64,000 nt of DNA from Bacteroidales bacterium (lineage in GTDB: Bacteria; Bacteroidota; Bacteroidia; Bacteroidales; UBA932). A model generated the notes under the pieces. The model ran no database searches. It saw only the letters and a program-made list of their open reading frames with translations, and was not told where the DNA came from. Positions 20,532-37,118 of this stretch are shown one piece after another. Location: the NCBI GenBank assembly GCA_017529425.1, contig JAFXNQ010000050.1, forward strand, positions 1 to 64,000, given 5' to 3'. Positions within the stretch are counted from its first letter, which is position 1. Each line of letters starts with the position of its first letter. The translations under genes were made by a program, and so were the position numbers.

Positions 20532-21545
20532 TTAACAACTTGAGCGCACCACCAGGGTGGGCGGTATAAGTCTTTGGCAGACTGTCGGCTCCGGGAGTCC
20601 TTCGCGGCGGGAATCAATGATACCGAAAAGGGTCTCTACCGCTATCTCCGATGCCTCGCGCAACGGTTGTTCTATGCGGGTGACCGCAGGGTCAAGGAAA
20701 TCAAGGAAACCGTTGTTGTCGTAGGATATTATTCCCACATCCCTCTTTACCTCAATATTGAGTCTCCTGAACGCATCTATCGCCCCCAGCAGGATTGTGG
20801 CGCTGAATGCGAATACCGCATCGAAAGGACGCGCGCCATCAGAGAAACAATTCATTATCTCATCGTGACCATTCTCCACGGAGAAGGCATTACCCACCAC
20901 GGCATAGTGTACCGGCTTCCCCTTGATTGCATCGGTAAAGCCGCGAAGTCGTTCCTGGTTAGGCATAGATGTCGGAACCCCCTGGATTGCAAGTATGCTT
21001 TTGTATCCCTTGTCCAGCAGAAAGTCAGTAGCCATACGTGCTCCAAGGTAGTTGTCGGTACATACGTACGGCAACGAAGTATGATTGAAGTGCCTGTCTA
21101 TAAGCACCATCGGGATGTCGCGACTAATCTGCTCGTGAAGCTCGGCAGAGGCTGCCACAGGAACCGATATAATGCCGTCTACCTTGCGTCCGGCAAACAT
21201 CTGCAACGCCATCTCCTCTTCAACATCGGACTCTCTGGAGTCGGCCAGCAGGGTGTGATAGCCCCTGTCGGCCAATAGTTTAATTATGATACCCGACAAG
21301 GTCGCAAAAAAAGGATTGTCGATTCCGGGCACCAGTAGGCCTATGGTTTTCGATTGTTTGGTCCGCAGAGACTGCGCCACAAGGTTGGGCTGGTAATTGA
21401 CCTGGCGGGCGGTCTCGGAAATCAGGTCTATCGCCTTTTTGCTGATACGGTATTTTTCCGCCTGTCCGGTGAGGACACGAGACACGGTGGAGACCGAATA
21501 ACCGGTCCTGGACGCTATTGTGAATATGTTACTTTTGCCTTCCAT
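20532..21545 (-). CDS. LacI-family transcriptional regulator of the ribose locus
   Basis: A 337-residue LacI/PurR-type repressor. The helix-turn-helix is FTIASRTGYSVSTVSRVLTG at residues 8-27, with a short hinge and a periplasmic-binding-protein-like effector domain from about 60 (KTIGLLVPGIDNPFFATL). I take ATG 21545 because the longer frame adds 80 residues of intergenic sequence. It is divergent from rbsK across 112 bases containing two mirror-image -7 boxes and a palindrome with a central CG, a LacI-type operator. Autoregulation and control of rbsK and genes downstream are therefore likely. The effector is probably ribose or a phosphorylated derivative (inference). Confidence 0.92.
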   Translation of the reverse strand: MEGKSNIFTIASRTGYSVSTVSRVLTGQAEKYRISKKAIDLISETARQVNYQPNLVAQSLRTKQSKTIGLLVPGIDNPFFATLSGIIIKLLADRGYHTLLADSRESDVEEEMALQMFAGRKVDGIISVPVAASAELHEQISRDIPMVLIDRHFNHTSLPYVCTDNYLGARMATDFLLDKGYKSILAIQGVPTSMPNQERLRGFTDAIKGKPVHYAVVGNAFSVENGHDEIMNCFSDGARPFDAVFAFSATILLGAIDAFRRLNIEVKRDVGIISYDNNGFLDFLDPAVTRIEQPLREASEIAVETLFGIIDSRREGLPEPTVCQRLIPPTLVVRSSC

Positions 21546-21580
21546 CGCACTATACGCTTGTAAAGTTAAGCATTTTTTTG

Positions 21581-21622
21581 TATTTTTGCGTAAAGCTTTG
21601 CTCAAACGATTGCGCAAAAATA
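21581..21622. promoter_or_regulatory. Divergent promoters and LacI-type operator between lacI-like gene and rbsK
   Basis: The perfect inverted repeat tatttttgcg (21581-21590) and cgcaaaaata (21613-21622) contains a TAnnTTTG -7 box on each strand, facing one another. A TTG at 21558-21560 may be the rbsK -33 element. Between and overlapping them, gctcaaacgattgcgc (21600-21615) is a 16-base palindrome (6 of 8 pairs) with a central CG, closely resembling PurR/LacI-family operators. It would cover both start sites. Confidence 0.65.
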
Positions 21623-21657
21623 ATAAAGATTCAAAAAACAGATAAAAAATATACACT

Positions 21658-22557
21658 ATGAGCAAAATTCTCATTATCGGAAGTTCAAATACCGACCTTG
21701 TGGTAAAGACAGACCACATCCCCGAACCGGGAGAGACCATTCTGGGTGACAACTTTATGATTGCTGCAGGCGGCAAGGGCGCCAACCAGGCAGTGGCAGC
21801 TGCCCGACTTGGCGGCGATGTAGCTTTTATAGCCTGCGTAGGCGACGATATGTTTGGCCGCCAGACGCTGGAGAACTATAAAAAAGAGCATATGGACATC
21901 TCCCATATCCGCACCGACAAGGCAGCCCCCAGCGGCGTGGCGCTTATCAGCGTGGCCGCCGACGGTGAAAACTGCATCGTGGTTGCCCCCGGCGCCAATT
22001 CATCCCTCTCCACAGCCGATATCGACGCTGCGGACAGCCTTTTCCGCGAAGCCGATTATATCCTTATGCAGCTTGAGATTCCGATGCCGGTGATCGAATA
22101 TGCCGCAGCTAAAGGCAAGGAATATGGCAAGAAGGTCATCATCAATCCCGCTCCGGCAGCGCCGCTGAGCGATGCCCTGCTCAAGGGACTCTACCTGATT
22201 ACCCCCAACAAGACAGAATGCCGCCAGCTTACCGGAATTGATATAGAGAACGACGCCGACCTTGACCGCGCCGCCACCTGCCTGATGGCCAAGGGGGTGG
22301 AGAATGTGGTCATCACTCTCGGCTCCAAAGGGTCGTATGTAAGGACTCCCTCCGGAAGCAGCGTGGTGCCTACAATGAAGGTGAAAGCGATGGACACCAC
22401 CGGAGCCGGTGACACCTACAACGGTTCTCTGCTGGTTGCACTCTCGGAAGGCCAGCCTCTGGAAAAAGCCGTAAGCTTTGCCAGCAAGGCTGCTGCCATC
22501 TCTGTTACCAGGATGGGTGCGCAGCCCTCTATTCCTTTCCGTAAAGAACTCGAATAA
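21658..22557 (+). CDS. rbsK: Ribokinase
   Basis: A PfkB-family sugar kinase of 299 residues that converts D-ribose to ribose 5-phosphate. The N-terminal substrate region NTDLVVKTDHIPEPGETILG (11-30) and GGKGANQA (38-45) are typical of ribokinase. The C-terminal signature DTTGAGDTYNG starts at Asp246, with catalytic Asp252. The sequence is closer to RbsK than to fructokinases because of the N-D at 11-13 and the GGKGANQA motif. It is the first gene of the rightward locus with the permease, SusC/SusD and hydrolases. Confidence 0.94.
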   Translation: MSKILIIGSSNTDLVVKTDHIPEPGETILGDNFMIAAGGKGANQAVAAARLGGDVAFIACVGDDMFGRQTLENYKKEHMDISHIRTDKAAPSGVALISVAADGENCIVVAPGANSSLSTADIDAADSLFREADYILMQLEIPMPVIEYAAAKGKEYGKKVIINPAPAAPLSDALLKGLYLITPNKTECRQLTGIDIENDADLDRAATCLMAKGVENVVITLGSKGSYVRTPSGSSVVPTMKVKAMDTTGAGDTYNGSLLVALSEGQPLEKAVSFASKAAAISVTRMGAQPSIPFRKELE

Positions 22558-22580: not shown

Positions 22581-23594
22581 ATGTACATCGTTGGCAGTTA
22601 CACACTTGCAGTCATTTTCTGCTTTGTTACAATGCTCTGCTGGGGTTCCTGGGGCAACACTCAGAAACTTGCCGCCAAGAGTTGGAGATACGAACTCTTC
22701 TATTGGGACTATGTAATCGGCATGGTCATCTTCTCGCTGCTCCTCGCCTTCACCGCAGGCAGCATCGGCAGCCAGGGCCGCCCTTTCATGCAGGATCTCG
22801 CACAGGTCAGCTGGGCCAGCATCGGCTGGGTCGTTTTGGGCGCCGTGATATTCAACGTATCTAATATCCTGCTCTCGGCCTCTGTTTCGCTGGCAGGCAT
22901 GGCGGTAGCATTCCCGCTGGGCGTGGGCATCGCGCTGGTTATGGGCGTGCTCAACAACCTCCTGCTCCACCCTACCGCAGGCCAGAACACCACCCTGCTC
23001 TGGATTGGCGTAGTGCTGGTGGTTCTTGCGGTAATCGTGAACGGTATCGCCTCCGGCAAGGTTTCCGGCGAGCAACGTGACCCCAAACAGAACCGCAAGG
23101 GCATCATCCTCGCGCTGCTGGCAGGTATCATCATGTCGTTCTTCTCCGCACTGGTTTACAACGGCGTGGACCTCGACAATTTTGCATCTCCCGCAGCCGG
23201 CAAGATGACACCCTACACCGCCATGGTAATCTTTGCGCTGGGCGTATTCCTGAGCAACTTTATCGTGAACACTATCGTGATGAAGAAACCCTTCGTGGGC
23301 GAGCCTGTCACCTATAAGCAATATTTTGCAGGCAATTTCAAGACCCATCTGGTAGGTGTCCTGGGAGGTTGCATCTGGGCGCTGGGTACATCCCTCAACT
23401 ACATTTGCGCAGGTACTGCCGGCGCAGCCGTTTCTTATGCACTCGGCCAGGGCGCACCCATGATTGCCGCCATCTGGGGCGTATTCATCTGGAAAGAGTT
23501 CAAGGGTGCTCCCAAGAAGGTATACTGGCTGCTTGCACTTATGTTTGCCCTTTTCGTAGCAGGTCTGGCCTGCGTTGTCAAAGCCGGCATGTAA
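22581..23594 (+). CDS. Sugar permease of the DMT/GRP type (probable ribose transporter)
   Basis: A 337-residue inner-membrane protein with about ten hydrophobic helices, resembling the glucose/ribose uptake (GRP) and RhaT branch of the drug/metabolite transporter superfamily. It has WGSWGNTQK near residue 19, an internal loop rich in KRKQ-like charge (GEQRDPKQNRKG, near 160), and GGCIWALGTSLNYI in the second half. Its place between rbsK and susC implies ribose import across the inner membrane. Ribose loci of Bacteroides have a comparable RbsP-type permease (recalled, not checked). Confidence 0.85.
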   Translation: MYIVGSYTLAVIFCFVTMLCWGSWGNTQKLAAKSWRYELFYWDYVIGMVIFSLLLAFTAGSIGSQGRPFMQDLAQVSWASIGWVVLGAVIFNVSNILLSASVSLAGMAVAFPLGVGIALVMGVLNNLLLHPTAGQNTTLLWIGVVLVVLAVIVNGIASGKVSGEQRDPKQNRKGIILALLAGIIMSFFSALVYNGVDLDNFASPAAGKMTPYTAMVIFALGVFLSNFIVNTIVMKKPFVGEPVTYKQYFAGNFKTHLVGVLGGCIWALGTSLNYICAGTAGAAVSYALGQGAPMIAAIWGVFIWKEFKGAPKKVYWLLALMFALFVAGLACVVKAGM

Positions 23595-23606
23595 CAAATC
23601 TTTACT

Positions 23607-26513
23607 ATGAAAAAATTCATTCTCTCTATAGCCGCCTTCCTGCTGGCATGGAGCGCCGTGGCCCAGAACGTAACCGTGTCGGGCACCGTTTCTGACGAAA
23701 ACGGCGAGCCGCTGCCCGCAGCAGCCATTCTGGCGGGCGGTGACTACACCACCAGCGACTTGGACGGCAAGTATGCATTGAAGACCAAATCCGGAGCCAC
23801 GGTGGTTGTCACTTATATGGGTTATGAAGATTATTCTTTTACCGTGCCGCAAGGAGGAGGTAAGGTGGATGTCAATATGACCCCTTCCCAGGCTCTGATG
23901 CTGGATGAGACGGTGGTTATCGGTTACGGTACCACTACCAAGAAGGAGACCACCGGAAGTGTGGCCAGCCTAAAGTCTGAAAACCTTGACCTCGGCTCGT
24001 ATATCAACGCCGGGGCGATGCTGCAGGGCAAAGTGGCCGGCCTCTCCGTGGTGAACCCCGACGGCGGCGACCCCAACGCCTCCTATCAGTTCCTGCTCCG
24101 CGGCACCAACACCCTGGCTTCCGGCCAGGGACCGCTGATCATCATAGACGGCGTGGTGGATGCCGACCTGCGCAACATCAACTTCCAGGAGGTAGAGAGC
24201 ATCGACGTGCTTAAGGACGGTTCGGCCGCCGCGATTTACGGTACCCGTGGTACCAACGGCGTGGTGATTATCACCACCCGCCGCGCCCGCGCCGGCACCA
24301 CCAGCGTGGAGTATGACGGCCAGGTATCTGTCCAGACCGTACAGAGCCGCGCCATGCCTATGACGGCGGAGGAATTTGAATATACCATCCGCAACTATGC
24401 CCCGGCCAAGGTAGGCTCCCTGTACGGCAGCGATACCGACTGGTTCAAGGAGATAACCCGCACCCCTATCAGCCACAAGCACAGCCTGGCGGTGAGCGGC
24501 GGCAACGACCTCTTCTCCCACCGCACGGTGCTCAACGTTGAGCAGAACCAGGGACTGCAGAAGGGCAACGACGCCTCCAAGTACCTGATCAAGACTAACA
24601 TCACCCAGCATCTGCTTCAGGGATGGCTGGATATGGACTATAATCTGGGTTATGTGAAACGCAAAGCCTCGCCCGCCAACTACGGCGCGTTCCGCCAGGC
24701 CTTTACCCATAACCCAACCGAACCGATTTACGACGAGTCGGCCACCGCATACGGCGGTTACTTCACAATCCCCGAATCTGACTACCAGAATCCCGTGGCA
24801 ATGCTCAACGAGCGTTCTGCATTCGACGAGACCAGCACCGTAAACGCCACCGTGCGTGCCACCCTCAACATCCTCCCCGTCAAGGGGCTCAAGTGGGACA
24901 ACTTTTTCAGCTACTCCGACGAAAAGTACTTCGGGGGCGAGTACAAGACCAGTTACTACCCCGGCAGCGTAGGTAAGAAGGGTGTTGCATACGTCTCTGC
25001 GAACGCTTACGACAATTTCCAGTGGGAGAGCACGGTGCAGTATTCCCGTATGTTCGGCGACCACTCCATCCAGGCCATCGGCGGCTACACATGGCAGAAG
25101 CAGATGAGCTGGAGCACCAATATGGAGAACTTCGGTTTTGACTCCGACTTTTACAAATACAACAATATGGGTGGCGGCACGGCCCTCAAGGAGGGTCTGG
25201 CCGACCAGTACACCAACCGCTCCTCCAGCCGCTATATCGCCTTCTTCGGGCGCGTGCTGTGGAACTACAAAGAGAAATATCTCGCCTCTGTGAGCCTGCG
25301 CCGCGACGGCAGCACCCGCTTCGGTAAAGATCACAAGTGGGGCTGGTTCCCCGCTGTCAGCGCCGGCTGGCGCATCAGCCAGGAAGATTTCATGAAGGAT
25401 ATCGACTGGATCAGTGAACTCAAGCTGCGCGCCGGATTCGGCGTCACCGGCAACCAGGACTTCTCCAACTACAAGTCGCTGATGCTGATGAGCTCCTCTA
25501 CCAGCTTCTACTACGACGGCGAGTGGATCAACTCCTACGCTCCAGCCTCCAACGCCAACCCCGACCTGCGCTGGGAGCGCAAGAACGAGTTCAACGTCGG
25601 TCTTGACTTCTCATTCTTCCAGGGACGTCTGGGCGGTACCCTGGACTACTACTACCGCCTGACCACCGACCTGTTGTACGACTACAACGTGCCGGTGCCC
25701 CCGTACGACTACAAGACCCTCTTCACCAACGTGGGTTCCATCAGCAACACCGGTATAGAGCTCTCGCTCTACGCTACTCCTGTGAAGACCCGCAACATGG
25801 TGTGGACCACCAGTCTTGTGGCCGCACACAACCGCAACAAACTCATCAAGTTCACCAACGAGGAGTTCAAGAACCAGGATTATGAAATCGGCTGGATAGC
25901 CACCCCCGTAGGGGCTTACGTACAGCGCCTGATGGAGGGGGAGAGCCTGGGCTCTTTCTACGCCCCCTGGTGGGACCATGTGGGGGCCGACGGCAGCGAT
26001 GTGCTGAAGGATGAATTTATGGGCAAGGTACCCGTCGCCAAGTGGAGCCTGATAGGCCACGCCTATCCCGACGTAACCCTTGGCTGGAGCAACACCCTGC
26101 GCCTGCACGACTGGACTTTCAGCATGACCTGGCGCGGCGCCATCGGCGGCAAGGTGTTCAACAGCTACCGGGCAAACTACGAGAGCCTTCACCAGATCGG
26201 CCTGAGGAATATCCTTGCTTCGTGGCTGGACAATACCGATTATACCGGTGAAATCCGCTACTCTTCAAAGTATATAGAGGATGCATCTTATCTCAAGCTG
26301 GACAATCTCTCTGTAAGCTACGACCTTCCGTTCCACAACCAATACCTGCACTCTGCCAAGGTATTCCTCAGCGGGCAGAACCTGCTGTGCATTACAGGAT
26401 ACAAAGGCGTAGACCCCGAGGTGAGCCTCAGCGGCCTGACCCCGGGTATCGAGAGCACCAGCTACTACCCCCGCACCCGCACCTTCTCTCTTGGCGTAAA
26501 TCTCACATTCTAA
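23607..26513 (+). CDS. SusC-like TonB-dependent outer-membrane transporter
   Basis: A 968-residue SusC-family protein. Signal peptide 1-19 (ending AVAQ) is followed by a carboxypeptidase-D regulatory-like domain (about 22-95) and a TonB-box-like DETVVIGYGTTTK near 97-109. The plug holds LRGTNTLASGQGPLIIIDGV and a typical DVLKDGSAAAIYGTRGTNGV. The beta-barrel ends in the characteristic RTRTFSLGVNLTF with a terminal Phe. With the SusD partner it should import a glycan, nucleoside-linked or glycoconjugate ligand into the periplasm. No STN domain is present, so no direct anti-sigma signalling is expected. Confidence 0.95.
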   Translation: MKKFILSIAAFLLAWSAVAQNVTVSGTVSDENGEPLPAAAILAGGDYTTSDLDGKYALKTKSGATVVVTYMGYEDYSFTVPQGGGKVDVNMTPSQALMLDETVVIGYGTTTKKETTGSVASLKSENLDLGSYINAGAMLQGKVAGLSVVNPDGGDPNASYQFLLRGTNTLASGQGPLIIIDGVVDADLRNINFQEVESIDVLKDGSAAAIYGTRGTNGVVIITTRRARAGTTSVEYDGQVSVQTVQSRAMPMTAEEFEYTIRNYAPAKVGSLYGSDTDWFKEITRTPISHKHSLAVSGGNDLFSHRTVLNVEQNQGLQKGNDASKYLIKTNITQHLLQGWLDMDYNLGYVKRKASPANYGAFRQAFTHNPTEPIYDESATAYGGYFTIPESDYQNPVAMLNERSAFDETSTVNATVRATLNILPVKGLKWDNFFSYSDEKYFGGEYKTSYYPGSVGKKGVAYVSANAYDNFQWESTVQYSRMFGDHSIQAIGGYTWQKQMSWSTNMENFGFDSDFYKYNNMGGGTALKEGLADQYTNRSSSRYIAFFGRVLWNYKEKYLASVSLRRDGSTRFGKDHKWGWFPAVSAGWRISQEDFMKDIDWISELKLRAGFGVTGNQDFSNYKSLMLMSSSTSFYYDGEWINSYAPASNANPDLRWERKNEFNVGLDFSFFQGRLGGTLDYYYRLTTDLLYDYNVPVPPYDYKTLFTNVGSISNTGIELSLYATPVKTRNMVWTTSLVAAHNRNKLIKFTNEEFKNQDYEIGWIATPVGAYVQRLMEGESLGSFYAPWWDHVGADGSDVLKDEFMGKVPVAKWSLIGHAYPDVTLGWSNTLRLHDWTFSMTWRGAIGGKVFNSYRANYESLHQIGLRNILASWLDNTDYTGEIRYSSKYIEDASYLKLDNLSVSYDLPFHNQYLHSAKVFLSGQNLLCITGYKGVDPEVSLSGLTPGIESTSYYPRTRTFSLGVNLTF

Positions 26514-26525: not shown

Positions 26526-28046
26526 ATGAAAAAGATACTTTACCTGATATTCTGTGTAGCCGCCCTTGCAGCCTGCACCAACCTGGACGAAGAGATTTAC
26601 TCCAAGATTTCCAAGGATAACTTCTTCACTACTGAAGACCAGTTTGTGAAATATTCCGCCCGTGCATATTCTTCACTGCAGCATTGGGGCACAGAGAAGA
26701 GCCTCTGGACCTTCAATATCCAGAACACCAACGAGGTGTGCGTCCCGGTCAACCCCAACGGTGGTTGGTGGGACGACGGCCGCTACAATGAGGTCCACGT
26801 GCACAGCATCCCCTCCAGCAACCGCCTTCTGGAGATGGCTTGGGATTACTGGTCCAGCGGCATCACCGCCTGCAACGACGTGCTGGATATGTTCGAGAGC
26901 GTTGAGAAGGATTTCGACGCCAAGAACCGCGTGGTTGCCGAGGTCAAGGTGCTCCGCGCCTATTATTTCCTCTGCGGCATCGACGGCTGGGGATATGTCC
27001 CCTTCTCCATCAGCAAGAAAGACAAGAGCTACCCTGAGAAGAAAGACCGCGCCTTTATGTTCGACTTTATCGAGAAGGAGATAAAGGACAATATCGACTA
27101 TCTGCAGGTGGAGCCCACTCCGGCTTATTATGGCCGCATCACCCGTGGCGCCGCAGAAGCTATCCTGGCCAAGCTCTACCTCAATGCAGAGAAATGGATA
27201 GGCAAGCCGATGTGGAAAGAGGCTGAGGATGTATGCCATGCCCTGATAAGCCGCGGCCATTACCGCCTGGCAGAGAAATACAACGACAACTTCAAGGTAT
27301 ACAACGAGACTTCGCCGGAGCAGATCTTTGCCATCCCCTACAGCACCGTATATACCACCGACGACCATCACGCCTTCCTGATCTATATGTCCACCCTCCC
27401 CGCCGATCTGTGTGCCCCGCTGGGCATCCCCGCCAAGGCGTGGGACGGCCTCTGCGGCGAACCGGACTTTCTGGCAAGTTACGAGGATGGCGACACCCGC
27501 AAGAAGGACACATGGTTATTCGGTCAAATTTATGACAAGGACGGCAATCCGGTGATGTACGACGAGAATACCCCTTATGTAATTGACCCCGATATGCCGG
27601 AGAGCGTTTATGGTAAGGACAGCCAACGCGAAGCCCTGCAGGGCGCCCGTATCTGCAAGTGGACCTACCAGAGCGACGGCCGCTTGACCGGCGGCCAGGT
27701 CGGTCAGGAGAATGACTTCTTCCTGCTGCGCTATGCCGATGTGGTGCTGATGTATGTGGAGGCTCTGGTGCGCCAGAACCGCGCAGCAGAGGCTGCCGAG
27801 GTGGCCGACTTCAAAGCCATCCGCACCCGCGCCGGGCTGAAGCCTTTCACCGCAGGACAGCTCACCCTGGACAATCTCTATTGGGAGCGTGCCCACGAGC
27901 TGGCCATCGAGGGGTGGCAGCGTCAGGATATGATCCGCTTTGACAAATATCTTGAGGCCTGGTGGGCTAAACCTGCCAAGGATGCTTCCGACCTGCTGCT
28001 CCCCATTCCCAAGACCGCAGCGGCCGCCAATCCTAACCTGAAATAA
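26526..28046 (+). CDS. SusD-like outer-membrane ligand-binding lipoprotein
   Basis: A RagB/SusD-family lipoprotein of 506 residues. The signal ends AALAAC (Cys17). The TPR-containing N-terminal half includes VVAEVKVLRAYYFLCGIDGWG (around 137-157), the usual SusD helix, and a GRITRGAAEAILAKLYL segment. The C-terminal part has FFLLRYADVVLMYVEALVRQN and LYWERAHELAIEGWQRQDMIRF, standard family motifs. It captures the substrate for SusC on the cell surface. Together with SusC this defines a polysaccharide-utilisation-type locus. Confidence 0.95.
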   Translation: MKKILYLIFCVAALAACTNLDEEIYSKISKDNFFTTEDQFVKYSARAYSSLQHWGTEKSLWTFNIQNTNEVCVPVNPNGGWWDDGRYNEVHVHSIPSSNRLLEMAWDYWSSGITACNDVLDMFESVEKDFDAKNRVVAEVKVLRAYYFLCGIDGWGYVPFSISKKDKSYPEKKDRAFMFDFIEKEIKDNIDYLQVEPTPAYYGRITRGAAEAILAKLYLNAEKWIGKPMWKEAEDVCHALISRGHYRLAEKYNDNFKVYNETSPEQIFAIPYSTVYTTDDHHAFLIYMSTLPADLCAPLGIPAKAWDGLCGEPDFLASYEDGDTRKKDTWLFGQIYDKDGNPVMYDENTPYVIDPDMPESVYGKDSQREALQGARICKWTYQSDGRLTGGQVGQENDFFLLRYADVVLMYVEALVRQNRAAEAAEVADFKAIRTRAGLKPFTAGQLTLDNLYWERAHELAIEGWQRQDMIRFDKYLEAWWAKPAKDASDLLLPIPKTAAAANPNLK

Positions 28047-28047
28047 T

Positions 28048-29814
28048 ATGAAAAGATTATTTGCAATACTGCTCACTGCAGCGCTTCTGATTTCCTGTGC
28101 CGACTCCGGCAAGAAGGAGATAACCCGCACCCAGCTCAAGGAGAAGATTGCCGGTGCATGGATCGGGCAGATGGTGGGCAACATCTACGGCCTTGAATAT
28201 GAGAACAAGTTTGTGGATGAGCCCGGTGAAGGCCCTTTCGTGTTCAACAAGGCTATCACCAAGATGACCGCGGTGGACGGCGCTTTTTCCGACGACGACA
28301 CCGACGTGGAGTATCTCTATCTGCTGATGATGGAGAAATACGGCATCGACATCACCTACGAGCAGGTGAAGGAGGGCTGGATGTACCACATCCGCGACCG
28401 CGTATGGCTGGCGAACCGTGCGGCCCTGGGGCTTATGCACTACGGTTTCACCCCGCCCTACACCGGCAAAAAGGAATACAATCCCCACTGGTTTCAGATT
28501 GACCCTCAGTTAATAAACGAAATCTGGGCCTACACCGCTCCCGGAATGCCCGCCTATGCAGCCGGCATCTCCGACTGGGCAGCCCGCATCACCTCCGATG
28601 ACTGGGCAGTATCCCCCACTGTGGTATATGGCGCAATGTATTCCGAAGCCTTCTTTGAGAGCGACATCCCCACCCTGGTGCGCCACGCTAAAGAGTATCT
28701 CCCGAAAGAGGACCGCTTCCGCGCCATAATAGACGAGTGTCTGGAGCTCTGGCAGCAGAATCCCGACGACTGGCATGCCGCCCGCAAGGCGATTGCCGAT
28801 GAATTGTATGTCAACGAGCCCGACATCACCAAGAGCATCTGGAATGCCGACCTCAACGGGGCAATGGGCATCCTGGCGCTGCTCTACGGCGAAGGCGATA
28901 TTGAGAAGACCCTCCTGATAGGCTGCGCGCTGGGCTTTGACTGCGACAACCAGACCGCCACCATATGCGGCCTGCTGGGCGTGATCAATGGCGTGCAGAG
29001 CGTTCCGCTGGACCGCGCAATGCCTTTTGAGCACTGGACCAAACCATTCAACGACCGCTACATCAACGTCACCCGCTACGATATGCCCGATGCCTCTATA
29101 GAAGATATCATAGAGCGCACGGTGGTGCTGGCGGAGAAGATTATCCTTGCACGCGGCGGCAGCGTCCGCGAAGAGAACGGCGAAAAGATATACACCATCA
29201 ACACCAAGGCCGTATTCAAACCGGCTCCGGTTGCGGCCAGCACCTTTGCGCTGCCTGCAGACCGCGGCCGCAATCTGGCCCCCGAGGCTGCTGAAATCCT
29301 GGCACTGACCTGCGAAACCGACGTTGCAACACTCGATTCCTGCTGGCTGACAATCCCCAAGACCTATCGCGCGTATACCGTAGATGTAATCAATGACGGT
29401 GTGGTTGGCGGACCCGGCGCGGCTTTCTATTCGCTGGGAGAGAAATCCAACGCCCCCAAGCAGGACTATTTCGGCTACCGCTGGGATAACCCCATAACGG
29501 CCGATATGGTATCGTTCCACTACGGACCCCTGGAGGAATTCGGCGGATGGTACAGTAATCTGCACGTTGAGTATCAGGATGAGAATGGTGAGTGGAAGGC
29601 CCTTGAGGCGGCCGTTACCCCCGAATGGCCATCCAGCGACGAGGTATTCTTCCAGCCGCATAACGGAGAGTTCATATTCACTTTCCCCGCTGTCACCACC
29701 ACCGCCATTCGCGTGATTGGCGACGACGCAGTGCTCATCCACTGGAACAAATACACCAAGGACGTATCGGCATTCATTTCGATAACAGAACTGCAGGTTT
29801 ATGAAGCGAAGTAG
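28048..29814 (+). CDS. ADP-ribosylglycohydrolase-family lipoprotein with discoidin-like tail (paralogue 1)
   Basis: A 588-residue lipoprotein (signal ending LLISC, Cys17). Residues about 28-400 have the ARH/DraG all-helical fold: KIAGAWIGQMVGNIYG, the first metal motif S-D-D-D-T (81-85) and the second GFDCDNQ with Asp298 and Asp300. Both DraG-type metal clusters therefore look usable. Residues about 440-588 look like an F5/8 type C (discoidin) beta-sandwich, suggesting carbohydrate binding. It should hydrolyse an N-, O- or S-glycosidic ADP-ribosyl or ribofuranosyl bond outside the cytoplasm. It begins one base after the susD stop and overlaps paralogue 2 by 14 bases. Confidence 0.88.
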   Translation: MKRLFAILLTAALLISCADSGKKEITRTQLKEKIAGAWIGQMVGNIYGLEYENKFVDEPGEGPFVFNKAITKMTAVDGAFSDDDTDVEYLYLLMMEKYGIDITYEQVKEGWMYHIRDRVWLANRAALGLMHYGFTPPYTGKKEYNPHWFQIDPQLINEIWAYTAPGMPAYAAGISDWAARITSDDWAVSPTVVYGAMYSEAFFESDIPTLVRHAKEYLPKEDRFRAIIDECLELWQQNPDDWHAARKAIADELYVNEPDITKSIWNADLNGAMGILALLYGEGDIEKTLLIGCALGFDCDNQTATICGLLGVINGVQSVPLDRAMPFEHWTKPFNDRYINVTRYDMPDASIEDIIERTVVLAEKIILARGGSVREENGEKIYTINTKAVFKPAPVAASTFALPADRGRNLAPEAAEILALTCETDVATLDSCWLTIPKTYRAYTVDVINDGVVGGPGAAFYSLGEKSNAPKQDYFGYRWDNPITADMVSFHYGPLEEFGGWYSNLHVEYQDENGEWKALEAAVTPEWPSSDEVFFQPHNGEFIFTFPAVTTTAIRVIGDDAVLIHWNKYTKDVSAFISITELQVYEAK

Positions 29815-31411
29815 CATACTGGCCCTTCTGCTGCTCATGCTGGCAGGTTGCGGTGCCCCCGATGCTCCGCAAAGCGTCACCATGACCCGCGAGGCGCTTA
29901 TGGACAAGATCCGCGGCGGCTGGGCCGGCCAGACCATAGGGGTCGTTTACGGCGCACCCACGGAGTTCAAATTCACCGGCACTTTGATTCCCGACAACCA
30001 GCCCATCAGCTGGGGCGAGGGTTATGTCAAATACTGGTGGGACCGCAAACCGGGCCTTTTCGACGACGTGTACAACGACCTTACGTTTGCCGAGGCCTTC
30101 GAACAGCTTGGCCTGGACGCTACGTCAGAGCAGCTGGGCATGAGGTTCGCTTACGCACCTTATCATCTGGCCCACGCCAATCAGGCTGGGCGATACAACA
30201 TCCGCCAGGGCATCATGCCGCCCGAATCGGGCAACTGGATGAACAACCCGCACGCCGACGACCTCGACTTCCAGATCGAGGCCGACTTCATAGGCCTTAT
30301 GTCGCCCGGCATGATTCCCCAGGCGCTTGACATCGCCGACCGCGTAGGACACATAATGAACAGCGGCGACGGCTTTTACGGCGGTGCGTTCGTGGCCGGA
30401 CTTTACAGTGCGGCTTTCGTGGAGAGCGACCCCGCACGCATAGTGGACATGGCGCTGGAGGGCATCCCCGAGCAGAGCACCTTCTGGCAGTGCGTGAATG
30501 ATGTTCGCGTGTTCCACAAAAAGTATCCGGACGACTGGAAACAAGCCTGGTTCGAACTCCTCAAGAAATGGGGCTCCGATACCGGCTGCCCAAAGGGGGT
30601 CTTCCTGAGCTTTGACATAGACGCCAAGATCAATTCCGCCTATGTGGCGATGGGCCTGCTCTACGGCGGCGGCGACTTTGGCCGCTCGATGGAGATTGCA
30701 ACCCGCTGTGGCCAGGATTCCGACTGCAACCCCGCCACCGTGGGTGGTGTGCTGGGCGTTGCCCTGGGCCTAGAGAATATCCCCGCCTTCTGGAAAGACC
30801 CCGTTATGGAGATCTGTGACCTCGACTTTGAAGGAACCGACGTCTCGCTGGCCAAAGGCTCGCAATACTCCTTTGACCAGGCGCTGCAGCTGATAGAGCG
30901 GAATGGAGGCCAGGTTAACGGGAGTGACGTCGTCATTCCCATCTCGAAGCCCGACGTGCTGCCTCTGGAACAGAATTTTGTGGATACCTACCCCATCTAC
31001 CGCGACCAGAAAGACGACTGGATGCGCGATACCTACGAGTTTGACTTTTCCGGCAACGGATTCGTGATCTGGGGCAACCTGGTGTGCCTTCGCGGCATCA
31101 GCGCCGACTACGCCGCCCGCGTGAGCAAGAAACACGTCGGCAGCGAAGTATTTGCCCTGGCTGAAGAAAACGACGACTATGTGGCCGAAATCGAGGTATG
31201 GATAGACGGAGAACTGGATCAGGTATCCATCCTTCCTATGAAGGGGACCTCCCGCAAGCTGGAACCCGCCTGGAAATATGGTATGGAGACCGGACGCCAC
31301 ACCGTTAAAATGGTTTGGCGCAATCCCAAACCCGACGAGTATCTGCTGCGCATCAACGCCATCCAATATTACGGAGATGCTCCTATAACCGACACTTACT
31401 ATCACAATTAA
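29801..31411 (+). CDS. ADP-ribosylglycohydrolase-family lipoprotein (paralogue 2)
   Basis: A 536-residue lipoprotein (signal ending MLAGC, Cys17). The ARH-type domain spans about 27-350. It opens MDKIRGGWAGQTIGVVYGAP. The first metal motif is changed to FDDVYNDLTF (Asp88, Asp89, Asp93) instead of the usual (S/T)DDT; the second reads QDSDCNPAT (Asp306, Asp308). After a linker, residues about 405-536 form a beta-rich domain with EIEVWIDGELDQVSI, likely a carbohydrate-binding or sandwich accessory domain. It shares long nearly identical DNA blocks with paralogue 3, indicating recent duplication. The altered motif suggests a related but different substrate. Confidence 0.85.
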   Translation: MKRSSILALLLLMLAGCGAPDAPQSVTMTREALMDKIRGGWAGQTIGVVYGAPTEFKFTGTLIPDNQPISWGEGYVKYWWDRKPGLFDDVYNDLTFAEAFEQLGLDATSEQLGMRFAYAPYHLAHANQAGRYNIRQGIMPPESGNWMNNPHADDLDFQIEADFIGLMSPGMIPQALDIADRVGHIMNSGDGFYGGAFVAGLYSAAFVESDPARIVDMALEGIPEQSTFWQCVNDVRVFHKKYPDDWKQAWFELLKKWGSDTGCPKGVFLSFDIDAKINSAYVAMGLLYGGGDFGRSMEIATRCGQDSDCNPATVGGVLGVALGLENIPAFWKDPVMEICDLDFEGTDVSLAKGSQYSFDQALQLIERNGGQVNGSDVVIPISKPDVLPLEQNFVDTYPIYRDQKDDWMRDTYEFDFSGNGFVIWGNLVCLRGISADYAARVSKKHVGSEVFALAEENDDYVAEIEVWIDGELDQVSILPMKGTSRKLEPAWKYGMETGRHTVKMVWRNPKPDEYLLRINAIQYYGDAPITDTYYHN

Positions 31412-31415
31412 TTCA

Positions 31416-32927
31416 ATGAGAAGACTCCTCATACCGCTTCTGGTGCTGCTTACCGCCTGCACAACGGCCCCCAAGGTGCCCTACGGGCAGACCGTAAAGA
31501 TGGACGATGCCACGCTTATGGACAAGATCCGCGGCGGCTGGTACGGCCAGACCATAGGCTGCACCTACGGCGGCCCCACCGAATTCAAGTACAAGGGTGG
31601 AATCATTATGGAAGAGATTCCCATCCCCTGGTACGACAATTACATCTACGACACCTACATAGAGGATCCCGGCCTGTACGACGATGTCTATATGGACCTG
31701 ACATTTCTGGAGACTATGCTGCAGTACGGCATTGATGCACCGGCAGACAAGTATGCAGAGGCCTTTGCAAATGCCGACTACAAGCTATGGCACGCCAACC
31801 AGGCGGCGCGGTACAACATACTGAACGGCCACGGCGCTCCCGATTCGGGCCACTGGAAAAACAACCCGCACGCCGATGACATCGACTTCCAGATCGAGGC
31901 CGACTTCATAGGTATGCTCTATCCCGGCCAGGCCAATAAAGCCTCCGGCCTCAGCGACCGCATAGGCCACATAATGAACTATGGCGACGGCTGGTACGGC
32001 GGTGTTTATATCGGCGCTATGTACTGCCTGGCGTATGTATGTGACGACATCCCCACAATAGTGACCGAGGCCCTCAAGACCATCCCGGAAGGTACCAAGT
32101 TCCACAGCACCATTTCTGACGTCATCAAATACTGGAAGCAGTATCCCGACGATTGGAAGCAGTGCTGGTTTGAGGTGACCAACCGCCACGCCAACGACGT
32201 CGGCTGCCCGGAGGGTGTATGGAACGGCTTCAACATAGACGCCACCATCAACTCTGCCTTTGTTGTCATCGGACTGCTGTACGGCGGCGGGGATTTCTTC
32301 AAGACGATTGACATCTCTACCCGCTGCGGCAACGACTCCGACTGCAATCCCGCCTCCGCTGCAGGCATTCTGGGTGTGATGTACGGCTACAGTGCCATCC
32401 CCGATAAATGGAAACGTGGAGCGGAGCGCATCAAGGAGATCCCATTCCCCTACACCAGCCTCAGCCTGGAGGCTGTATGCCGGGAAAACTTTGACCTTGT
32501 GAAAAAACTTGCCTCCAAAAGTGATAATATGGGGGAGTATTGCATTTACATAGAGGTGGAAAAGCCTCAGGCAGTACGTTACGAACAGAGCTTTGAAGGG
32601 ATCAAACCGGTAGAGAAGCGGGTGCTCAAGAAGGCTTTCACCGATAGCGTGGATTTGCAGTTCACTGGCAACAGCATCGTTGTGGAGGGGAGCGTACGCA
32701 AGACCGGACATGCCGACGACAGCTATGTAGCCAACATTACCGCCCTGCTGGACGGCACCGAAGTAGAGAACTTTAACATGCCTGTAGATTATATCACACG
32801 CAAGTACGAAATATTCTCTAAATATTGTTTCCCCAGTGGCGGACATACGCTGACTCTGCGGCTCAACAATCCTCATCCCGACTACGAACTTTATGCATCT
32901 GAAATGGTTGTTTATGATGAAGAATAG
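31416..32927 (+). CDS. ADP-ribosylglycohydrolase-family lipoprotein (paralogue 3)
   Basis: A 503-residue lipoprotein (signal ending LLTAC, Cys15). Its ARH-like domain resembles paralogue 2: MDKIRGGWYGQTIGCTYGGP, YDDVYMDLTF with Asp89, Asp90 and Asp94, and NDSDCNPAS with Asp307 and Asp309. A beta-rich tail covers about 390-503 (TALLDGTEVENFNMP, GGHTLTLRLNNP). It starts four bases after paralogue 2, and the esterase start codon lies within its last codons. It is probably exposed at the surface or in the periplasm, acting with the other two enzymes on one substrate class. Confidence 0.85.
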   Translation: MRRLLIPLLVLLTACTTAPKVPYGQTVKMDDATLMDKIRGGWYGQTIGCTYGGPTEFKYKGGIIMEEIPIPWYDNYIYDTYIEDPGLYDDVYMDLTFLETMLQYGIDAPADKYAEAFANADYKLWHANQAARYNILNGHGAPDSGHWKNNPHADDIDFQIEADFIGMLYPGQANKASGLSDRIGHIMNYGDGWYGGVYIGAMYCLAYVCDDIPTIVTEALKTIPEGTKFHSTISDVIKYWKQYPDDWKQCWFEVTNRHANDVGCPEGVWNGFNIDATINSAFVVIGLLYGGGDFFKTIDISTRCGNDSDCNPASAAGILGVMYGYSAIPDKWKRGAERIKEIPFPYTSLSLEAVCRENFDLVKKLASKSDNMGEYCIYIEVEKPQAVRYEQSFEGIKPVEKRVLKKAFTDSVDLQFTGNSIVVEGSVRKTGHADDSYVANITALLDGTEVENFNMPVDYITRKYEIFSKYCFPSGGHTLTLRLNNPHPDYELYASEMVVYDEE

Positions 32928-34465: not shown

Positions 34466-35191
34466 ATGAAAAAAGTTCTTTTTGCAATTGCAATGATTGC
34501 TGTTGTGGCTCTCTCCGGCTGCTCCAAACCCGAACCCAAGATTCAGAAGCGTCTTGTTATGTGCGGTGACGAGTGGGACAAGTATGCATTCACCTATGGC
34601 GCTGACGGCAAGATTTCCGTTGTAAACCGCAACGAGGGTGAGCGTACCTGGACTTTCACATGGAACGGCAACACCGCTACCGTTGCTTATGTAAAGGAAG
34701 GCGAAGTTCAGGATCCGTACACCTTTACCCTTGGCGCAAACGGTTTCGTATCTACCTATACCGACACCTGGGGTGACGTTCGCAACTGCACCTACGATGC
34801 AGAAGGCCACCTTCTCAAAGTTGACAAGGCAGGTGAGGTTAAGTGCAACTGCGTATGGAAAGACGGCGACCTGGAGAAATGGTCCCGCTTCAGCGACGGT
34901 GCTGAGCAGTTCAAGATCCAGAGCTTCCTGGTTGACGAGAACGTGGGTGGCATCTTCCCCGACGCTACCGACAAGGCAGGCATCGACCGCTGGATGATCG
35001 AGATCGGTCTCTTTGGCAAGCCCTCTAAACACCTCCTCGACCAGGCTACCTGGGACGGCAGCGGCGCTATCGCTGTTCAGACCTACGAGAAAGACGAGGA
35101 CGGCTTCGTAACCAAGGTCAGCAAGGTTTACGACGGCGGCGATCCCGAGATCTACGAGTACGCATGGGAAACCATCACTCCTGCTAAATAA
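34466..35191 (+). CDS. Small beta-repeat lipoprotein of unknown function
   Basis: A 241-residue lipoprotein (signal ending ALSGC, Cys20). The body is made of short repeated strands such as KYAFTYGADGKI, TFTLGANGFV, NCTYDAEGHLL and VQTYEKDEDGFV, like DUF4595 or YD-type repeats. The sequence is rich in aromatic and charged residues, with no catalytic motif. It may be a surface glycan-binding protein of the locus; this is inference from position. It has an A-rich leader and its own terminator, so it probably ends the main operon. Confidence 0.7.
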   Translation: MKKVLFAIAMIAVVALSGCSKPEPKIQKRLVMCGDEWDKYAFTYGADGKISVVNRNEGERTWTFTWNGNTATVAYVKEGEVQDPYTFTLGANGFVSTYTDTWGDVRNCTYDAEGHLLKVDKAGEVKCNCVWKDGDLEKWSRFSDGAEQFKIQSFLVDENVGGIFPDATDKAGIDRWMIEIGLFGKPSKHLLDQATWDGSGAIAVQTYEKDEDGFVTKVSKVYDGGDPEIYEYAWETITPAK

Positions 35192-35240: not shown

Positions 35241-35243
35241 TTG

Positions 35244-35251
35244 TACCTTAG
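35244..35251 (+). promoter_or_regulatory. Near-consensus -7 box for the GH127 gene
   Basis: TACCTTAG differs from TAnnTTTG at one base and lies four bases before the ATG. It would give a leaderless message. There is no clear -33 element. Confidence 0.3.
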
Positions 35252-35255
35252 CTGT

Positions 35256-37118
35256 ATGAAAAACTTTATCCCTTTGCTGACTGTTGCCGCTGCTGCAATT
35301 GTTGTTGCTGCCTGCTCCGGCAACGAAACATCCGACACACATAAACTCATTACCCCGGTCGGTTTTGCCGACGTGAAAATTGACGACGCATTCTGGAGCC
35401 CCAGACTGCAGAGCCACAAGGATGTAACCCTGCAGGTTTGCATTGACCAGATTGAGAACCAGACCGGCCGAATACGCAATTTTGAGAATGCCGCCAAGGG
35501 AACCGGCGAACACTCGGGAATATACTTTGACGATTCCGACGTGTACAAGGCGCTGGAGGGGATGGCCTATTCGCTGCAGAACAACCCTGACCCTGAACTG
35601 GAGGCCAAGTGTGACGAATGGATAGACAAGTTTGCCGCAGCCCAGCAGGATGACGGCTACATTAACACATACTATACCCTGACCGGGCTGGACGGGCGCT
35701 GGATTGACATGACCCGGCACGAGATGTACTGCGCCGGCCATATGACAGAGGCGGCGGTGGCATACTACAACGTCACCGGCAAGCGCAAGCTGCTGGATGT
35801 CGCCATACGGATGGCAGACCATATGATGACCGTCTTCGGCCCCGGCAAGCGCCACTGGGTCCCCGGACACGAAGAGATAGAGTTGGCGCTGGTCAAACTG
35901 TTCCAGGCCACCGGCAAGAAAAAATACCTCGATTTCGCCGAGTGGCTGATAGACGAACGCGGCCACGGCTACGGCACATGGGGCAACCCTCCCGAGCCTT
36001 GGGAGGCTGAATACTTCCAGGATGACAAGCCCGTGCGCGAGATGACCGACATAGCCGGACACGCCGTGCGCGCCATGTATTTATACTGCGGAATGGCCGA
36101 CGTTGCCGCATACACCGGAGACCAGGGCTATATCGACGCCCTGAACCGCCTCTGGGACGATGTGGTACTGCGCAACATGTACATTACCGGCGGCATCGGG
36201 CAGAGCTCCCACAACGAGGGGTTCACCAACGATTACAGCCTTCCCAATCTGACCGCTTACTGCGAGACTTGCGCCTCTGTGGGGATGGTGCTCTGGAACT
36301 GGCGTATGAACCAGTTTACTGCCGATTCCAAGTATATCGATGTGCTGGAGCGTGCGCTCTACAACGGTGCACTGGCGGGTATATCGCTGGAAGGGAACAA
36401 CTTCTTTTACGTTAATCCCCTGGAATCTATGGGCAATCATCACCGCCAGGCATGGTACGGCTGCGCCTGCTGTCCCAGCCAGATTTGCCGCTTCCTCCCC
36501 TCGATTGGCAACTACATCTACGGCGTTGCCAAGGACGGCATCTACGTAAACCTCTATATGGGCAATACCGCCACCATGAAACTGGGCCGCCGCAAGGTAA
36601 CACTGACCCAGGAGACCGAATATCCATGGGACAGAAACGTGACAATCACCGTGGGTACCGGGAAACCTCTTAAAACCATTCTTCGGCTCCGGCTGCCCAA
36701 CTGGTGCCACAGCTGCTCGGTTTCACTTAACGGACAGGCCGTAGATACACGCATCCACAAAGGATACGCAGAGATAGACCGCGAATGGAACAATGGTGAC
36801 CAGATTCTGCTGACTTTTGATATGCCGGTAGAGATGGTGGCCGCCGACCCCCGCGTGAAGGAAGACGAAGGGATGCGTGCAGTGCAGCGCGGACCGCTGG
36901 TATACTGCATGGAAGAGGTTGACAACCCCGACTACGACAATCTCTGCCTATCTTCTGATGCCCAGTTCGGGACCACCTGGGAAGGAGACCTGCTGCACGG
37001 CATAACGACAATCACCGCCACCTGCGGCGAACGGACCCTCAAGCTCATCCCCTACTACGCCTGGGACAACCGCGCCCCCGGCAAGATGCGGGTCTGGATA
37101 CCATTTACGGACAAATAG
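35256..37118 (+). CDS. GH127 (DUF1680) beta-L-arabinofuranosidase-type lipoprotein
   Basis: A 620-residue lipoprotein (signal ending VVAAC, about Cys22) with an (alpha/alpha)6 barrel of family GH127. The five catalytic and zinc residues of HypBA1 are all present at nearly the same numbers: acid/base Glu321, zinc ligands Glu337 and Cys339 (CETC), and the pair Cys405-Cys406 (GCACCPS), where Cys405 would be the nucleophile. Known GH127 enzymes release beta-L-arabinofuranose. It lies after the terminator of the ribose operon and converges on hicB with five bases between. Its furanosidase activity matches a locus directed at pentofuranosides. Confidence 0.9.
   Translation: MKNFIPLLTVAAAAIVVAACSGNETSDTHKLITPVGFADVKIDDAFWSPRLQSHKDVTLQVCIDQIENQTGRIRNFENAAKGTGEHSGIYFDDSDVYKALEGMAYSLQNNPDPELEAKCDEWIDKFAAAQQDDGYINTYYTLTGLDGRWIDMTRHEMYCAGHMTEAAVAYYNVTGKRKLLDVAIRMADHMMTVFGPGKRHWVPGHEEIELALVKLFQATGKKKYLDFAEWLIDERGHGYGTWGNPPEPWEAEYFQDDKPVREMTDIAGHAVRAMYLYCGMADVAAYTGDQGYIDALNRLWDDVVLRNMYITGGIGQSSHNEGFTNDYSLPNLTAYCETCASVGMVLWNWRMNQFTADSKYIDVLERALYNGALAGISLEGNNFFYVNPLESMGNHHRQAWYGCACCPSQICRFLPSIGNYIYGVAKDGIYVNLYMGNTATMKLGRRKVTLTQETEYPWDRNVTITVGTGKPLKTILRLRLPNWCHSCSVSLNGQAVDTRIHKGYAEIDREWNNGDQILLTFDMPVEMVAADPRVKEDEGMRAVQRGPLVYCMEEVDNPDYDNLCLSSDAQFGTTWEGDLLHGITTITATCGERTLKLIPYYAWDNRAPGKMRVWIPFTDK

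Follow-up and report, generated by a model that had tools for sequence, protein, structure and literature searches.

Genes of the locus

The stretch considered here, referred to as the window, comprises 64,000 nucleotides of contig JAFXNQ010000050.1 from the genome of an uncultured Bacteroidales bacterium. Its forward strand carries three consecutive genes at 28048..29814, 29801..31411 and 31416..32927 that encode lipoproteins of 588, 536 and 503 amino acids (aa), termed ARH1, ARH2 and ARH3 after the ADP-ribosylglycohydrolase (ARH) family. Each combines an ARH-fold catalytic domain with a C-terminal extension, i. e. a discoidin/CBM32-like domain in ARH1, a beta domain in ARH2, and a jelly roll resembling the N-terminal domain of CE2 esterases in ARH3. 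An earlier note on this DNA had described three tandem ARH-family lipoproteins, and the open reading frames (ORFs) are present as described, with PF03747 scores of 100.8, 120.1 and 132.2 bits that lie well above the cut-off of 26.2. They are the sole PF03747 genes of the 2.17-Mb genome. ARH1 shares 25% protein identity with ARH2 or ARH3, while ARH2 and ARH3 are 44% identical.

The trio is preceded on the same strand by genes for a ribokinase (21658..22557; 371.5 bits versus a curated cut-off of 341), an inner-membrane sugar transporter of the GRP/ureide-permease type (22581..23594), a SusC-type TonB-dependent transporter (23607..26513), which was identified by its translation and its position ahead of SusD rather than via Pfam, and a SusD-type surface lipoprotein (26526..28046). 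It is followed, likewise on the forward strand, by a gene for a secreted CE1-type esterase (PF00756; 32893..34431).

Conservation across the Bacteroidota

When named genomes were searched with an alignment of ARH1 sequences, 156 relatives were obtained; 80 of them were retrieved, and the 55 loci with a length of at least 18 kb were counted. Since the loci were gathered via ARH1, its presence is given by construction, which does not apply to the other genes. The recurrent order is ribokinase-(GRP)-SusC-SusD-ARH1-ARH2-ARH3-esterase(s)-(GRP). ARH2, ARH3, SusC, SusD and an esterase, including the CE1-type enzyme found in the window, occur in all 55 long loci, the ribokinase in 53 and the GRP transporter in 52. 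ARH1 is a separate protein in 52 of them and is fused to ARH2 in the remaining three, where a single ORF of ~1175 aa encodes both (L109:10001-13519, L132:9995-13522 and L143:9995-13522). Carriers include rumen Bacteroidales, Alistipes, a metagenome-assembled genome of the Prevotellaceae, Gelidibacter and Lutibacter (Flavobacteriaceae), as well as a Cyclobacteriaceae genome, and in all of these groups one-to-one orthologues of the three ARHs stand in the order seen in the window. Cultured carriers are Alistipes sp. Marseille-P5061 (L147) and Gelidibacter salicanalis (L121). The ribokinase orthologues of five distant loci exceed the curated TIGR02152 cut-off. Among the neighbours of the operon, there is no recurrent family of nucleotidases, pyrophosphatases or phosphatases. 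Taken together, the three-ARH locus is real, old and conserved, and constitutes a rus-like ribose locus built around ARH-fold hydrolases.

Several further genes of the window locus show a more variable distribution. A nucleoside-hydrolase-like lipoprotein (PF01156; 19531..20526, forward strand) is present in only 5 of the 55 long loci and was thus rejected as a core component, and a GH127 β-L-arabinofuranosidase-like protein (35241..37118, forward strand) occurs in 3; both are therefore regarded as local additions. The GH127 protein was not assigned the name aceric-acid hydrolase, as it reaches 468 bits versus a cut-off of 950. A DUF4595-like lipoprotein (34466..35191, forward strand) with a weak Pfam match has homologues in 49 of the 55 loci. 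The reverse strand encodes a LacI-type regulator (20532..21785), the real start of which likely lies within the ORF. The outer flanking genes that were scanned (a thioesterase, an RNA methyltransferase and a Mg-chelatase-like ComM) are seemingly unrelated to the locus, and a phage-defence role of the window genes was dismissed, since PADLOC returned no match. The window ribokinase scores ~577-631 bits against its nearest kin and ~260-375 bits against most other carriers, which suggests that it was replaced in its own lineage along with the gain of the nucleoside hydrolase. In several loci, a divergent ~510-aa protein with no or a weak TPR Pfam match is encoded upstream of the ribokinase (e. 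g. L139:2801-4330 and L067:5544-7061, both on the reverse strand), possibly as a regulator of the operon.

Age of the three paralogues

According to the earlier note, ARH2 and ARH3 arose by recent tandem duplication or gene conversion. The near-identical DNA blocks behind this proposal do exist: 29895-29975 and 31513-31593 agree at 83%, and 30173-30310 and 31791-31928 at 79%, with a spacing of 1618 throughout. Moreover, the best 16-codon stretch of the two genes matches at 46 of 48 bases, above all 500 synonymous-codon draws; this excess is small and unexplained, and the comparison with orthologues does not attribute it to conversion. Judged from the repeat found there, the stretch likely corresponds to 29895-29940 and 31513-31558.

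The remaining evidence contradicts a recent origin, which we consider extremely improbable. ARH2 and ARH3 share only 44% of their residues, and in trees of the catalytic domains the three paralogues cluster by type across genomes of different families and classes, not within a genome. Pairing ARH2 and ARH3 of the window, as the earlier note would have it, costs 441 log-likelihood units and is rejected by the approximately unbiased (AU) test (p-AU 5.8e-34). In a careful tree, support for strict clades is moderate (73/100 for ARH2; ARH3 as a single clade in 74% of the bootstraps), because single-copy relatives place near ARH3. Identity at fourfold sites between ARH2 and ARH3 is 0.47 within the same genome versus 0.43 between different genomes, while the window pair shows 0.50 against an expectation of 0.42 from codon usage. 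Finally, the nearest relative carries the 31513-31593 block unchanged in its ARH3, while its ARH2 differs, and the ARH2 of another relative is as close to the window ARH3 (65/78) as the window's own ARH2 (64/78). The blocks are coding sequence for invariant motifs and carry no gene-conversion signal.

Metal sites and substrate pocket

Published ARH motifs read E...SDDT...DSDS and E...[T/S]DDT...DTDT, and both metals are required (PMC6309922). In the window, the corresponding residues are E52, S81-DDD-T85 and D298-C-D300-N301 in ARH1, E55, F87-D88-D89-V-Y-N-D93 and D306-S-D308-C309-N310 in ARH2, and E56, Y88-D89-D90-V-Y-M-D94 and D307-S-D309-C310-N311 in ARH3. E52, E55 and E56 correspond to one another and to the catalytic Glu of MJ1187 and DraG, and in a profile alignment of ARH2/3 with MJ1187, Tri1 and DraG, the DD of FDDV/YDDV falls onto the canonical DD and DSDC onto the canonical DxD[T/S]. 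A sequence search of the PDB with the single ARH proteins gave no match, nor did the ARH1 profile, while other alignment profiles gave matches. The motif sets are fixed for each type, i. e. SDDDT/D[CA]DN in ARH1, FDDV/DSDC in ARH2 and YDDV/DSDC in ARH3. Thus, none of the three proteins has the complete binuclear motif [T/S]DDT...DxD[T/S], and all retain its four Asp positions. The altered motifs that the earlier note had seen in paralogues 2 and 3 are genuine, as LFDDV/DSDCN and LYDDV/DSDCN, and invariant within their classes. Its view that paralogue 1 keeps SDDDT and DCDN needs qualification: both are present, yet they are not canonical, with one extra Asp compared to SDDT and with DCDN in place of DTDT/DSDS.

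The conservation of these positions is strict. A set of 47 diverse ARH2/3-type sequences shows no variation at E56, D89, D90, D307, D309, C310 and N311, and 31 sequences of the ARH1 type show none at E52, D82, D83, D84, T85, D298, D300 and N301. Consequently, the acidic core has been kept and the hydroxyl ligands have been replaced, differently in each type. Because ARH2/3 have other residues in place of the two hydroxyl ligands of the binuclear centre, one or two members of the trio could be non-catalytic binding proteins that kept the fold and lost hydrolysis. We regard this as quite unlikely, given that the ARH2/3-type set shows no change at Glu, the four Asp, Cys and Asn, that the ARH fold is retained with a Z score of 33 (see below), and that single-copy relatives of this type adjoin ribokinase with no further ARH found nearby. 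The loss of the metal site in paralogues 2 and 3 that the earlier note had considered is not seen at the level of the sequence.

The substrate pocket appears to differ as well. When the trio is aligned with canonical members from bacteria, ARH2/3 show HADDIDFQIEAD and ARH1 shows HWFQIDPQLINEIW where those have the GNGSLMR loop, and MN or TS falls at the position of their TH pair. In published structures, the pyrophosphate is contacted by a conserved His and nearby backbone (PMC6309922); this His probably corresponds to that of the TH pair. Hence, ARH1-3 appear to lack both the GNG loop and the pyrophosphate-binding His, the position of the latter being less certain. The acidic residues at the loop may be more compatible with a neutral sugar than with a pyrophosphate, an argument that is no more than suggestive, as identity in this alignment is ~15%. 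The three proteins thus belong to PF03747, but two sequence features that define a working ADP-ribosylhydrolase, the complete metal motif and the GNG loop with the pyrophosphate His, seem to be missing.

Predicted structures and tail domains

AlphaFold models were considered for ARH3 (predicted local distance difference test score, pLDDT, 92.1) and ARH1 (pLDDT 83.5), with ARH2 covered by its alignment with ARH3 throughout. Both models display the all-alpha ARH fold, and both find their best match in Latimeria ARH3 (6g1p), with Z 33.0 and a root-mean-square deviation (rmsd) of 2.5 over 300 residues for the window ARH3, and Z 27.5 and rmsd 3.2 over 303 residues for ARH1. Against DraG, the values are Z 27.7 and Z 23.6, respectively. 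The tail of ARH1 resembles CBM32/discoidin-type modules with Z of about 12-13 (4cub, Z 12.8), and that of ARH3 the jelly roll at the N-terminus of CE2 esterases (2waa) with a middling Z of 9.8. The different tails noted previously for paralogue 1 and the others are hence borne out, at least for paralogues 1 and 3.

Proposed role in ribose utilisation

The proximity of ARH-fold and ribokinase genes extends beyond the trio. Single-copy ARH3-type genes lie near or beside a ribokinase gene in 5 of 8 genomes sampled across the phylum, and in addition in genome G043, on a Parabacteroides distasonis plasmid and in Spirosoma. The plasmid (NZ_OY725755.1, a 93-kb record) carries a module of ribokinase, ARH, nucleoside hydrolase and GRP transporter without SusC/SusD near a site-specific integrase (L067:7293-11822). 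A further ARH class with GADDDT (L161-L173) occurs in several Bacteroidota and shows the motifs WG[A/S]DDDTDIEY and GWDSDNPTAT; it was found beside ribokinase in one of four checked cases (L187, with ribokinase and a GRP transporter).

On balance, we favour, with moderate confidence, the view that the window contains a ribose-utilisation locus whose ARH trio acts as extracytoplasmic, metal-dependent glycoside hydrolases; these would release ribose from some ribofuranosyl compound distinct from ADP-ribose. From ADP-ribose conjugates, ARHs release ADP-ribose, not ribose, so the ribokinase encoded in the operon is an argument that the trio yields free ribose. Furthermore, an ADP-ribose diet would need nucleotidase, pyrophosphatase or phosphatase steps ahead of ribokinase, and the absence of such recurrent families from the operon neighbourhood argues against it. 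In the proposed pathway, SusC/SusD would import fragments of the substrate, the CE1-type esterase would strip acyl groups, and the ARHs would cleave the ribosyl bonds, presumably of alpha configuration as judged from the fold family. Ribose could then be imported by the GRP transporter and phosphorylated by ribokinase. Inferred throughout are where the enzymes reside (surface or periplasm), that they are hydrolytic, which anomer they cleave, what they act on and what each of them does. Since ARH1 and ARH2/ARH3 differ in their metal sites and in their carbohydrate-binding-like tails, they probably target different linkages or different positions of one substrate. The division of labour put forward in the earlier note is borne out in so far as all three types are co-retained in 55 of 55 long loci, with the three ARH1-ARH2 fusions counted.

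Alternatively, ARH1-3 could be genuine ADP-ribosylhydrolases that work outside the cell, where lysed cells would supply ADP-ribosylated proteins, poly(ADP-ribose) or NAD-derived compounds as food. The matching fold and Pfam family, the preserved metal-centre residues (Glu and four Asp) and the nucleoside-hydrolase-like gene of the window locus would all fit such a function. Nevertheless, we hold it to be unlikely, because acidic or polar residues stand in place of the GNG loop and the pyrophosphate His, the nucleoside hydrolase is found in so few of the long loci, and both the product expected from conjugates and the lack of recurrent phosphate-removing enzymes point elsewhere. Conceivably, the trio might instead cut N-ribosidic bonds in nucleoside-like or alpha-ribosyl compounds, e. 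g. alpha-ribazole, as part of a nucleoside-scavenging locus. Ribokinase and a nucleoside-hydrolase-like lipoprotein are encoded nearby, and the P. distasonis module couples an ARH with a nucleoside hydrolase. However, such nucleosidases would leave the invariant esterase, SusC/SusD and the carbohydrate-binding-like tails unexplained, and the nucleoside hydrolase is an accessory gene; the odds of this function are correspondingly low.

Several points weigh against the favoured role of the trio as ribose-releasing glycoside hydrolases. Loss of a single Mg-coordinating residue inactivates the previously characterised ADP-ribosylhydrolases ARH1 and ARH3 (PMC6309922), and sites devoid of hydroxyl ligands might therefore lack activity or rely on a different metal. 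The predicted models are metal-free, the pocket alignments suffer from the low identity mentioned above, and SusC/SusD together with the esterases imply a substrate that is oligomeric and esterified. Among the papers that could be searched, none dealt with secreted ARHs in ribose loci or with ribofuranosidases.

A speculative tricarboxylate ester

The marine and lake relatives offer a lead to the substrate. Of the 9 untruncated loci in this clade, 8 (L121, L124, L126, L128, L133, L134, L139 and L140) encode a DASS-type anion transporter next to the other operon genes, and the one tested exceeds the TIGR00785 cut-off. In L121, L126 and L128, homologues of CitD-CitE and CitF that score below the equivalog cut-offs are encoded between the DASS gene and ribokinase. 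CitF is present in 9 of 10 marine/lake and 1 of 4 gut carrier genomes, and is absent from the window genome. In addition, the marine/lake clade has two esterases. In view of the DASS transporter, the Cit genes and the two esterases, a citrate-like ester on a ribose compound is conceivable, although the pattern might also stem from kinship of the genomes. The secreted ARH-fold proteins might then represent a glycoside-hydrolase family that has so far escaped notice and that breaks down a widespread ribose polymer or conjugate with an ester-linked tricarboxylate, in which the ARHs free the ribose and the esterases the acid. In the marine/lake relatives, the acid would be imported by DASS and split by citrate lyase. 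We consider this extended scenario rather doubtful.

Significance and relation to known systems

The ARH fold is known almost solely for the removal of ADP-ribose. If the proposed role is correct, this fold would also work in digestion, as a glycosidase whose metal centre has been remodelled and which is tied to ribose catabolism in Bacteroidota, and the automatic label “ADP-ribosylglycohydrolase” would be misleading for a large gut and marine group. The locus further points to a source of ribose that is common enough to sustain the whole locus in bacteria of rumen, gut, lake and sea.

With DraG, ARH1, ARH3 and Tri1 of PF03747, the window trio shares the fold, the catalytic Glu, the DD pair and the DxD pair. 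In contrast to these, its members are secreted lipoproteins with extra C-terminal beta domains that are encoded in a ribose-catabolism operon; their hydroxyl metal ligands are replaced, the GNG loop is lacking and the pyrophosphate His is unaligned. The Bacteroides ribose-utilisation system rus comprises SusC/SusD, ribokinase, a ribose-type transporter and a nucleoside hydrolase, all of which likewise occur in the window locus, where SusC/SusD adjoin the ribokinase and the ribose-type inner-membrane transporter. Glowacki et al. are said to have described in 2020 rus-like loci across the Bacteroidota, some of them with ADP-ribosylglycohydrolases, which is taken here as a lead, not as support. 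Unlike in rus, the core of the present locus is an obligate ARH-fold trio with a CE1 esterase, and the nucleoside hydrolase is optional. Finally, the locus has the SusC/SusD pair, lipoprotein hydrolases, esterase and LacI-type regulator in common with polysaccharide utilisation loci of gut bacteria and those for plant glycans, yet its core is devoid of a recurrent classical glycoside hydrolase, with GH127 confined to 3 of the 55 loci.

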